A stretch of 45,326 nucleotides of DNA from Rubrobacter aplysinae. Lineage in GTDB: Bacteria > Actinomycetota > Rubrobacteria > Rubrobacterales > Rubrobacteraceae. Shown one piece after another: positions 28,558-32,225 of this stretch (the stretch's first letter is position 1; each line of letters opens with the position of its first letter). A program made the position numbers and the translations under genes. The DNA lies in the NCBI RefSeq assembly GCF_001029505.1, contig NZ_LEKH01000022.1, forward strand, positions 1 through 45,326. The letters are read 5' to 3'. The notes under the pieces are model-generated. The model ran no database searches and was not told the DNA's origin. It saw nothing but the letters and a program-made list of their open reading frames with translations.

Positions 28558-28593
28558 AGAGCCCCCGTGGAAACGAACTCCAACGGGGGCTCT
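28558..28593. terminator. Terminator between subtilase and selD
   Basis: AGAGCCCCCGT pairs with ACGGGGGCTCT across a 14-base loop. It lies 20 bases after the protease stop and before the converging selD end, so it can serve both. Confidence 0.7.
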
Positions 28594-28630: not shown

Positions 28631-29668
28631 TTAGGAGGTTACCGTGACGCCACTCCCGGTAGTGACCTCTCCTATGACTGTGGCGAGATCGCCGCTGGCC
28701 CGCAGGGCGTCCAGTAGCGGCGGCAGGCTGCTCTGTGGGGCCGAGATCAGGAGCCCCCCGCTGGTCTGGGTGTCGAAGAGGGGGAGCAACTCCTCCTCGG
28801 AGACGCCGTCGGCCCGTACGGAGCCCGAGAGGTGCTCCCGGTTATCCTTGAGGCCACCGGGGTAGACGCCTTCGGCGGCGAGCCTCTTCGCCCGCTCCAG
28901 GATCGGGGTCTCCGATAGCCTCAGTACCGCCCCCGCCGAGCTGGCGTCGAGCATCTCCGAGAGGTGGCCGAGCAGACCGTAGCCGGTCACGTCGGTGGCG
29001 GCGGAGACCCCGGCGCTTTGCATGGCTTCTGCGGCGGATCGGTTGAGGCGTGCGGCCCACTCCACGGCCTCCTCTATCTCGGCGTCGGAGACGAGCTCGC
29101 GCTTGAGCGCGGTCGTGAGTATCCCGATGCCCAGGGGCTTGGTGAGGACCAGGGCGTCGCCCTCGGCGGCCCCGGCGTTTCTTACCACCCGGTCGGTCTC
29201 GACGAAGCCGGTCACGGAGAGGCCGTACTTGGGCTCGTCGTCCTTTACGGAGTGCCCGCCGAGTAGCCGGGCGCCGGCCTCATCTATCTTGGAGCGGCCG
29301 CCTTCTAAGATCTCGCCGAGCACCGAGAGATCCAGCGAAGCCGGGAAGCCGACCAGGTTCATCGCCGTCAATGCCTCGCCGCCCATCGCGTAGATGTCGG
29401 AGAGGGCATTGGCGGCAGCGATCTGGCCGAAACGGTACGGGTCGTCGACTATCGGGGTGAAGAAGTCGGCGGACTGGAGCAAAAGACCTCCGCCAAACGG
29501 TATGAAGCCCGCGTCGTCACGGGTCCCCATGCCGCTTACCGAGCCGTCATCCCGAACCGGGTCGCTTATTCCTTCCAGAACGTCCTCCAGGGCCCCTGGA
29601 GAAAACTTGGACGCTCAACCGGCCTTGGTGGAGTATTTGGTTAGCCTGATCCTGGTTCTCTCATCCAT
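28631..29668 (-). CDS. selD: Selenophosphate synthetase with selenocysteine at the active site (SelD/SenC)
   Basis: Makes selenophosphate from selenide and ATP. The frame from ATG 29668 reads LTKYSTKAG, TGA, ASKFSPGALEDVL, then GTRDDAGFIPF to the stop at 28631. This is 345 residues if TGA is read as Sec18. Sec18 falls exactly where E. coli SelD has catalytic Cys17, and K21 matches essential Lys20; the second Cys of the loop is Ser. The rest is canonical (VDDPYRFGQIAAANALSDIY, LGGHSVKDDEPKYGLSVTG, TDVTGYGLLGHL, DTQTSGGLLIS). A frame limited to 28631-29530 would lack the catalytic loop. It may serve both Sec-tRNA synthesis and selenoneine. It is in frame with senB without an intervening stop. 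Confidence 0.9.
29580..29617 (-). promoter_or_regulatory. Candidate bacterial SECIS element behind the selD UGA
   Basis: The UGA is at 29617-29615. Directly after it GCGUC (29614-29610) pairs with GACGU (29584-29580). Above an 8-base bulge, CUCCAGG (29601-29595) pairs perfectly with CCUGGAG (29591-29585) around the loop GGC. The loop begins 20 bases after UGA and carries G at its first positions. Both points agree with the known bSECIS rules (loop 16-37 bases after UGA, G in the first two loop bases). Confidence 0.75.
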
Positions 29669-30700
29669 GGGTCGAGTATAACGCGCCTCGTCCGTTGTGG
29701 ACCCGGCCTCCACCGCCAGCTTCTCTGCGGACAGCTCTTCGACGAGCGCCGCGAGCGCCGCGCGCTCCCGGTCGGGCTCGAAAAGGTACGCCCGATCCCG
29801 CACGTGGCGCTCGAGCTCCGCGTAGAACCCCGCGTCGGACTCTGCGCGCCACAGCAGGCGCGCGAGCGCCCGCTCGTCGCTTGCGGGATCCCGCTCGTCG
29901 CTTGCGGGATAGTAGCCGGGATAACCCCGGCCCAGCATCCCGACGTTGCCGGGTATCTCCGAGGCGAGCACCGGCAGACCGGCGGCCATAGCCTCTCCGA
30001 CCGCGTTCGCCCCGCCTTCCAGCCCGGAGCTCTGCACCAGCACGTGCGAGCGTGCCAGGAGCCCGCGTGCTTCCCCGGGCCCGAGCCGCCCCAGCCAACG
30101 GTAGCGCGGGCTGAGGCCCTCGTGCCTGCGGGCCTCGGCCGCGTGGGCGTCGTCCGCCCCTCCGGCGTGCAGCACTCGCAGCCGGGACTGCTCCGGCACG
30201 AGCCGGGCGGCCAGGACGGCCCGGAAAGGGTCCTTCTCCGGGCGCAGGTTTCCTATCACGCAGGCCGTGAAATCAGGGGCGTCACGGGTGCCGGAGGGCT
30301 CGCGCGCGGTGGCCGGGGCGGACTGGTAGATGACGCGGGTCTTGTCCCGGTGACGACGGGGGAGGGAGTGTGGGCCACGCTCCTGTAGCACGATCAGGCG
30401 CCAGGCCAGATCCAGGGACTCCCGGGCATCGGCGTCCTCGTGGATGTCGCGGTACAGGTCGGTGCCGGTCAGGGCCACCACGAGAGGCCGGTCCGGGTGG
30501 GCGGCGGCGAAGCGGGCGACGGACTCGTGGCTGCGGCGGGCGTGGAGCGCGATCAGGAGCCCCGCCTCTTCGTCCCGCCAGGAATCCGAAACGGAGACCT
30601 CGTGGCCCGAGTCGCGCAGCAGGCGCGCCCAACGGTCGGCCGTCGTCCAGTTGCCGCTACCGGAGGCCCGGCCTTTCGGGGTTACGATCTCGACTCTCAT
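29615..30700 (-). CDS. senB: Selenosugar synthase SenB (TIGR04348-type glycosyltransferase)
   Basis: A 361-residue GT-B glycosyltransferase. RVEIVTPKGRASGSGNWTTA, GLLIALHARRSHESVARF, AHPDRPLVVALTGTDLYRD and RVIYQSAPA match the family that joins selenophosphate to UDP-N-acetylglucosamine-type donors to make selenosugars in selenoneine synthesis. VQSSGLEGGANAVGEAMAAG is the donor-binding part. ATG 30700 is preferred to GTG 30712. The last 17 codons are also the first 17 of selD in the same frame. The only stop is the UGA that selD reads as Sec, so Sec insertion would give a 689-residue SenB-SelD fusion. SenA is divergent. Confidence 0.88.
   Translation of the reverse strand: MRVEIVTPKGRASGSGNWTTADRWARLLRDSGHEVSVSDSWRDEEAGLLIALHARRSHESVARFAAAHPDRPLVVALTGTDLYRDIHEDADARESLDLAWRLIVLQERGPHSLPRRHRDKTRVIYQSAPATAREPSGTRDAPDFTACVIGNLRPEKDPFRAVLAARLVPEQSRLRVLHAGGADDAHAAEARRHEGLSPRYRWLGRLGPGEARGLLARSHVLVQSSGLEGGANAVGEAMAAGLPVLASEIPGNVGMLGRGYPGYYPASDERDPASDERALARLLWRAESDAGFYAELERHVRDRAYLFEPDRERAALAALVEELSAEKLAVEAGSTTDEARYTRPMDERTRIRLTKYSTKAG
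29669..29680 (-). promoter_or_regulatory. Leaderless-type -10 box before the internal selD ATG
   Basis: TATACT (29680-29675) lies six bases before ATG 29668, the same spacing as at rarA. It is inside the senB coding frame. No ribosome site precedes the ATG and the -35 is weak, so a separate selD transcript is possible but unproven. Confidence 0.4.
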
Positions 30701-30857
30701 CCTGCCTCTCACTCTGTTCTCATTCGGCGCGTCTTCGCGTGCCGGGGCGTAAGCGTAAGCATACGGATTTTGCGGTGGTTTGCGTTAGTATTCCAGTTTC
30801 AGGAGGCTTTCGGAAGATGCCGGATACTAGAAGATACAAAGAGCCAGAGGGGGCGTG
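30701..30857. promoter_or_regulatory. Divergent senA/senB control region
   Basis: This 157-base gap must hold the promoters for both sides of the selenoneine cluster. Visible are the direct repeats GCGTAAGCGTAAGCATA (around 30761-30777) and AGTATTCC facing GGATACT about 35 bases apart, a possible operator. No clear -35/-10 pair stands out. AGAGGGGG before ATG 30858 is the senA ribosome site. Confidence 0.4.
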
Positions 30858-32225
30858 ATGCAGGATAGACACGGGGCCCGCGAGGACACGGGGAACGTAG
30901 AGGACATGCTGCGCGACTCGCGCCGGCGCACGCTGGAGCTGGTCGGCGACCTCGACGAAGAGCAGATGATGGGGCCGCAGCTCAAGATAGTGAACCCGCC
31001 CTTGTGGGAGATAGGGCACCTGGCCTGGTTCCAGGAGTACTGGAACCTCCGCCGCCGCGACGGCACCCGCGACGAGTTCTCGGGCTCCGAGTTCCTGGAG
31101 CGGCCGGACGAGATCTACAACTCCGCCGAGATAGACCACGACTCACGCTGGGGGGCGGACCTGCTCTCCACGTCCGGGACCCACGATTACATGCAGAACG
31201 TCCTCGACCGCACCCTGGACCGTCTGGACCGGGAGGGTGGCCCCGAGCTCTCCTACTACTCCCGGCTCGCCACCTTCCACGAGGACATGCACGCCGAGGC
31301 GTTCACCTACACCCGGCACACCCACGGCCTGCCCGCGCCGGAGCTCTCCGACTACGACCCGCACGCGCTGGACGGCCAGCCCACGGGGCCGCTCCCGGGC
31401 GACGCCGAGATACCCGGCGGCGAGTTCATGCTCGGGGCCGACCCTGGCTCGGTCGAGCGCGGCGAGGTCCCCTTCGTGTTCGACAACGAGAAGTGGGCCC
31501 ATCCCGTACAGGTCGCCCCGTTCAAGATGGCTCGGGGCCAGGTAACCTACGGCCAGTTCGCGGAGTTCGTCGAGAGCGGCGGGTACGAGAAGCCCGGGCT
31601 GTGGAGCGAGGCGGGGTGGCGCTGGCGCGAGGAGAACGGGATCGAGCGTCCCCTGTACTGGGAGAAGCGCGGCACCGGAGACGGCGAGTGGCACCGGCGG
31701 CACTTCGACCGCCTGGAGCCGATACCGGAGAACGCCGCCGTGATCCACGTCGGCTACCACGAGGCCGAGGCCTACTGCAACTGGGCCGGCCGGCGGCTGC
31801 CGACCGAGGCCGAGTGGGAGCTGGCAGCGGCGGCAGAGCCCGCTCCAGACGGCGGAATCTCCTCCCGCAAGCGGCTCTATCCCTGGGGCGACAAGCCGCC
31901 GGTTCCCGGAGACCGGCGGGCGAACCTGGACGGCATCCTGATGGGGACGGTGGACGTGGCAGCATTCCCCGAGGGCGAGAGCGCCTTCGGGGTGCGCCAG
32001 ATGCTGGGCAACGTGTGGGAGTGGTGCTCGGACGTGTTCCAGCCCTACCCCGGCTACGAGCGGGACCCGTACAAGGAGTACTCGGAGCCCTGGTTCGGAG
32101 ACCACATGGTGCTGCGCGGCGGCTGCTGGGCTACCCGGTCCAGGATGCTCCGCAACACCTGGCGCAACTTCTACATGCCGGACCGCCGGGATACCTTCGT
32201 CGGCTTCCGCACCTGCGCACGGTAG
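30858..32225 (+). CDS. senA: Selenoneine synthase SenA (EgtB-like)
   Basis: A 455-residue non-heme iron enzyme. The N-terminal DinB-like bundle contains NPPLWEIGHLAWFQEYW and ATFHEDMHAEAFTYTRHTHG. H54, H141 and H145 fit the EgtB iron triad (H and HxxxH). The C-terminal FGE-sulfatase domain runs from IPGGEFMLGADPG to WEWCSDVF, MVLRGGCWATRS and FVGFRTCAR. EgtB joins hercynine to a thiol; SenA joins it to a selenosugar. The 'HEDMHAEAFTYTR' form and the adjacent SenB and SelD point to SenA rather than EgtB. GTG 30855 is an alternative start. EgtD, needed to supply hercynine, is not in the window. Confidence 0.87.
   Translation: MQDRHGAREDTGNVEDMLRDSRRRTLELVGDLDEEQMMGPQLKIVNPPLWEIGHLAWFQEYWNLRRRDGTRDEFSGSEFLERPDEIYNSAEIDHDSRWGADLLSTSGTHDYMQNVLDRTLDRLDREGGPELSYYSRLATFHEDMHAEAFTYTRHTHGLPAPELSDYDPHALDGQPTGPLPGDAEIPGGEFMLGADPGSVERGEVPFVFDNEKWAHPVQVAPFKMARGQVTYGQFAEFVESGGYEKPGLWSEAGWRWREENGIERPLYWEKRGTGDGEWHRRHFDRLEPIPENAAVIHVGYHEAEAYCNWAGRRLPTEAEWELAAAAEPAPDGGISSRKRLYPWGDKPPVPGDRRANLDGILMGTVDVAAFPEGESAFGVRQMLGNVWEWCSDVFQPYPGYERDPYKEYSEPWFGDHMVLRGGCWATRSRMLRNTWRNFYMPDRRDTFVGFRTCAR

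Follow-up and report, generated by a model that had tools for sequence, protein, structure and literature searches.

A probable leaderless selD promoter within senB, and a selenocysteine codon serving as the senB stop, in Rubrobacter aplysinae

In Rubrobacter aplysinae, the genes for a selenosugar synthase (senB) and a selenophosphate synthetase (selD) share one reading frame that is interrupted by a single UGA, raising the question of whether the two proteins are made separately or as a fusion. A sequence-only reading of the 45,326-nucleotide contig NZ_LEKH01000022.1, hereafter the window, had proposed a selenium-sensing translational switch and channelling device, in which termination at the UGA would release SenB, and selenocysteine (Sec) insertion would join it to SelD. 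Translation of the window placed both genes on the minus strand, which that reading had left unstated, and agreed that the senB frame stays open through the selD ATG to the UGA. Positions 30700 to 28631 form a single frame that ends in TAA and in which the UGA (codon 362) is the only internal stop; the corresponding plus strand frame over senB-selD contains several stops. The product lengths given earlier were all correct, with 361 residues for SenB ending at the UGA, 689 for the SenB-SelD fusion, and 345 for SelD from the inner ATG. Within selD, the UGA stands at codon 18, preceded by the ATG and 16 codons.

Profile searches assigned both genes to their families (SenB, 389.1 bits against a curated cut-off of 300; SelD, 357 bits against a cut-off of 125), and this selD is the sole SelD found in the genome. 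The locus is best explained as a selenoneine locus, with senA divergent from senB-selD; egtD, whose product is the expected source of hercynine, is encoded elsewhere in the genome, away from the sen locus. A similar grouping is known from Variovorax paradoxus, whose senABC cluster (PMC10891094, PMC10702425) also joins SenA and SenB with a selenophosphate synthetase; the present locus departs from it in the divergent orientation of senA and in its synthetase, a Sec protein whose gene overlaps senB and beside which no other SelD was found. At the two ends of the senB-selD pair, further sequence elements were observed. A TATAAA-type motif recurs ~30–40 bases upstream of senB in L022, L026, L030, L033, and L040, pointing to a short-leadered promoter for senB between senA and senB. 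Between selD and a convergent subtilase gene, at 28558–28593, lies a perfect inverted repeat rich in G+C (AGAGCCCCCGT...ACGGGGGCTCT), possibly a terminator shared by these two genes.

Table 1. Features of the senB-selD region, in window coordinates.
Feature	Position	Strand	Basis
senB, selenosugar synthase	29618..30700	-	TIGR04348, alignment to solved SenB, frame; ATG 30700
selD, selenophosphate synthetase, Sec at codon 18	28631..29668	-	TIGR00476; ATG 29668, TAA 28633-28631
UGA, Sec codon of selD and sole stop of the senB frame (TGA 29617-29615)	29615..29617	-	UGA in 29/29 scored family selD; Sec apparatus
Putative bacterial SECIS upper hairpin	29585..29601	-	fold, pairing in 23 sequences, codon constraint
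TATACT, predicted -10 box for leaderless transcription of selD, within the senB 3' end	29675..29680	-	box in 29/29 selD
Linker, SenB residues 324-344 (SAEKLAVEAGSTTDEARYTRP)	29669..29731	-	outside the SenB fold; unconserved in relatives except the box
senA, selenoneine synthase, divergent from senB	30855..32225	+	NF041186 SenA, 500.7 bits, cut-off 420

Is the UGA a genuine Sec codon? It aligns to the catalytic cysteine of the solved Cys-type SelD 3u0o, it occupies the equivalent position in all 29 family selD genes that were scored, and a start codon lies 17 codons ahead of it in 28 of them. The genome encodes selA, selB, and a tRNA-Sec with a UCA anticodon, adjoining one another; together with the family score and the position of the UGA, this apparatus identifies the selD product as a Sec-containing SelD. 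Folding of the downstream RNA, compared with a bacterial SECIS model (PMC13188914), yielded the hairpin CUCCAGG-GGC-CCUGGAG, which comprises 7 bp and a GGC loop, beginning 13 nt past the UGA with its loop starting after 20 nt. Across 23 sequences, 95% of cells were paired; the variation consists of A-U/G-U exchange at one pair, and two-sided change is almost absent. Rfam at its gathering thresholds gave no matches in the window. Codon choice at the hairpin is strikingly narrow: alanine is coded by GCT in 27 of the 29 genes (27 of the 28 in which alanine is coded there) against 61 of 1056 in the remainder of selD, glycine by GGG in 29/29 against 22%, and proline solely by CCA or CCG. This synonymous-codon bias downstream of the UGA shows a strong constraint at the RNA level. 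Sec insertion at the selD UGA is thus well supported by the Sec apparatus, the conservation of UGA at the cysteine position, the hairpin, and the codon constraint, in agreement with the earlier proposal that the UGA is recoded.

SelD of R. xylanophilus has already been listed as a selenoprotein, and the protein described here resembles other bacterial Sec-SelD enzymes in that Sec replaces the catalytic cysteine in a mobile N-terminal loop, with the SECIS just downstream; unlike known Sec-SelD, an upstream senB frame is continuous with selD (PMC1794560). One relative, G007 (L019), possesses an additional in-frame UGA at codon 6 of selD (MDKRK*IRLTKYSTKAG*), possibly a sequencing error, damage, or a second recoding site.

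The TATACT sequence, separated from the selD ATG by six bases (CGACCC), was likewise found where the sequence-only reading had placed it. All 29 scored family selD genes carry a TA(T/C)A(A/C)T box 6–12 nt upstream of the start codon, against a background rate per position of 1.7e-4 to 2.5e-4; for 14 of the genes, no senB occurs in the flank examined. In high-GC Actinobacteria, a -10-like box at approximately this distance, ~10 bp ahead of the start codon, has been described as marking leaderless genes (PMC3160421, PMC3898074), and leaderless starts have been determined experimentally in Mycobacterium tuberculosis, in which internal transcription starts also carry the -10 motif (PMC3898074). 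As in those genes, with their TANNNT box, no Shine-Dalgarno pairing precedes the inner selD ATG (+0.7 kcal/mol); unlike them, the putative promoter is embedded in the 3' part of a neighbouring gene and would drive expression of a selenoprotein, and the start is predicted. Some relatives possess purine runs ~12 nt ahead of the selD ATG and may initiate selD on leadered transcripts. Pairing energies with the anti-Shine-Dalgarno sequence did not separate selD starts from senB starts across the family, and the case for a leaderless start therefore rests on the box and not on the missing Shine-Dalgarno. Judged by their conservation, neither the UGA with its SECIS-type hairpin nor the TATACT box is due to chance. 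The most fitting interpretation of the box is a promoter for leaderless selD transcription inside the 3' end of senB; the sequence-only reading had likewise given the box a real role. SelD alone, which that reading had offered as an optional third product, would then be the conserved one.

Taken together, a model for the locus emerges that we consider probable: selD is transcribed from an embedded leaderless promoter, the two genes overlap, and the Sec UGA is by chance the next stop of senB. RNA polymerase engaged at the -10 box would start the transcript at or beside the A of the selD ATG, as the six-base spacer leads one to expect, and ribosomes on this transcript would make the 345-residue Sec-containing SelD as the normal product. 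SenB would be translated from a longer transcript that begins farther upstream. With selD independent of the senB stop codon, senB would be free to lose that stop and run into selD, terminating at the first stop in its own frame; here this frame coincides with that of selD, so that the Sec UGA is the first one met. There, most of the ribosomes translating senB would release the 361-residue SenB with a non-homologous tail. As the Sec insertion elements lie downstream of the UGA, some senB ribosomes would be expected from the mechanism to read on by means of Sec-tRNA and SelB bound at the SECIS, furnishing the SenB-SelD fusion as a lineage-specific by-product. Where selD transcription starts, which products are made, and in what amounts are points that we infer from sequence.

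This model and the proposed switch differ in whether a common frame should be maintained, and we examined the junction in the 15 family genomes in which senB immediately precedes selD. In four, senB is in the selD frame; in R. aplysinae, G030, and G032 nothing interrupts it before the UGA, and in G003 a TAA falls six bases before the ATG. In the other 11, senB is out of the selD frame (five and six in the other two frames), its stops falling between -52 and +59 relative to the ATG. The sequence-only reading had looked to conservation of the lost senB stop in relatives; a stop or a frame shift makes the fusion impossible in 12/15, which largely refutes that expectation, and the common open frame is kept in three. 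By contrast with the box, frame usage is close to chance (4:5:6), and senB overruns the selD start in nine of the 15 genomes, ending at +19, +51, or +59 from that start according to frame. At a GC content of 66.6%, 24 codons free of stops arise with a probability of 56–66%, and the open linker is therefore unremarkable by itself. The expected number of open junctions (15 x 1/3 x 0.56 = ~2.8, against three observed) serves as a guide only, the genomes not being independent.

Phylogenies corroborated this impression. In both the SelD and the SenB tree, G030 and G032 group together (100/100), and their supported sister pair consists of G003, with its TAA, and the frame-shifted G062, placing all three junction states (open, TAA, and frame shift) inside one supported clade of four genomes. 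R. aplysinae stands apart on a long branch in both trees. The scatter of junction states over the trees indicates that the open frame is easily altered and does not characterise the family; on the junction frames and the trees, we rejected selection for a common frame across the family. In G021 (L056 1-2448), the senB frame extends upstream without a stop for hundreds of codons, running antisense to senA, which demonstrates how little weight an open frame carries at this GC content. G001, the sole congener compared and rated at 100% completeness, gave no match to senB or selD. Beyond the family, few of 80 senB loci on genome contigs, mostly from other phyla, had selD nearby, and the one open in-frame junction among them belongs to a Rubrobacter metagenome-assembled genome already counted; senB was not found in the viral contigs searched.

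Could the fusion nevertheless serve as a switch, with Sec supply setting whether SenB is free or fused, and with the fused SelD handing selenophosphate directly to SenB? The open frame and the true Sec UGA in three genomes speak for it, as do the SelD fusions known from other bacteria: the accessible text of PMC4561486 names NADH-dehydrogenase-like-SPS and NifS-SPS, in which a second protein is likewise joined to the N-terminus of SelD, and the NifS-SPS of Geobacter sp. FRC-32 has Sec. SenB-SPS is not among the fusions named in that text and, unlike the fusion genes it describes, the locus studied here retains an inner start and a promoter-like box, and most relatives are unfused. The protein itself might tolerate tethering. 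Solved SenB chains (8jjq, 8fbx, and 8k5u) align to residues 3–324 of SenB, and the fold is complete by approximately residue 324, followed by a linker of ~20 residues and then, as far as the UGA, by the 17 residues that SenB has in common with the start of SelD; for comparison, the domains of V. paradoxus SenB span residues 1–331 (PMC10891094). An AlphaFold model of the fusion displayed two confident domains, with low confidence at residues 335–350 and in the Sec loop at 360–395, so that two tethered domains are possible and a tethered fusion is sterically feasible. Against channelling, the model had a pTM of 0.55 with no confident inter-domain arrangement and no sign of domain contact. The linker is unconserved, 12 of the 15 genomes cannot make the fusion, frame use matches the chance expectation, and a promoter-like box of its own is conserved before selD; furthermore, selenium shortage would block the fusion and SelD alike from any transcript, leaving a choice between free and fused forms with little logic. 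We regard the switch and channelling device as quite improbable. The SenB frame of R. aplysinae also contains a tandem 21-base duplication (PASDERDPASDER; 29870–29910) that is absent in all aligned relatives.

Selection for the fusion might instead have acted in the G030/G032 lineage only, or in R. aplysinae, as a recent gene fusion in progress. G030 and G032 do share an open frame at full branch support, and the indel between their linkers is six bases long and keeps the frame, which is weakly compatible with selection; still, their supported sister pair carries a TAA (G003) and a frame shift (G062), R. aplysinae is placed apart, and three genomes are all that carry it, making this scenario improbable too. 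It is likewise unlikely, though with a little more room, that open-frame lineages possess a functional SenB-SelD fusion alongside free SelD, with selenium status setting the tethered share. That the common frame is an artefact of a linker base missed in sequencing or assembly is the most far-fetched of these proposals: the genome is a draft of 33 contigs and a single base would alter the frame, but the arrangement recurs in two more genomes, from other assemblies, whose linkers differ. The embedded promoter with overlapping genes is thus the reading we retain, and it is plausible that the fusion is a Sec-dependent by-product without sign of selection.

The sequence-only reading is accordingly supported in part: the arrangement is real, its explanation is more ordinary than the one offered, and the fusion is possible. 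In full-text literature, with most subscription papers outside its coverage, no description of Rubrobacter senB-selD or of a SenB-SelD fusion was found. For gene annotation, the locus holds two risks, as a caller that takes UGA as a stop would truncate SelD and end SenB at residue 361, and a caller that reads Sec would report the 689-residue fusion as the main product. The locus is a clear example of a gene whose putative promoter and start codon lie concealed in the gene before it, which in turn has a recoded UGA doubling as its stop, and illustrates how an embedded leaderless promoter can release the upstream gene from keeping its stop. If the fusion is made, the open-frame genomes would be a natural setting in which to test the tethering of successive pathway enzymes under Sec control.
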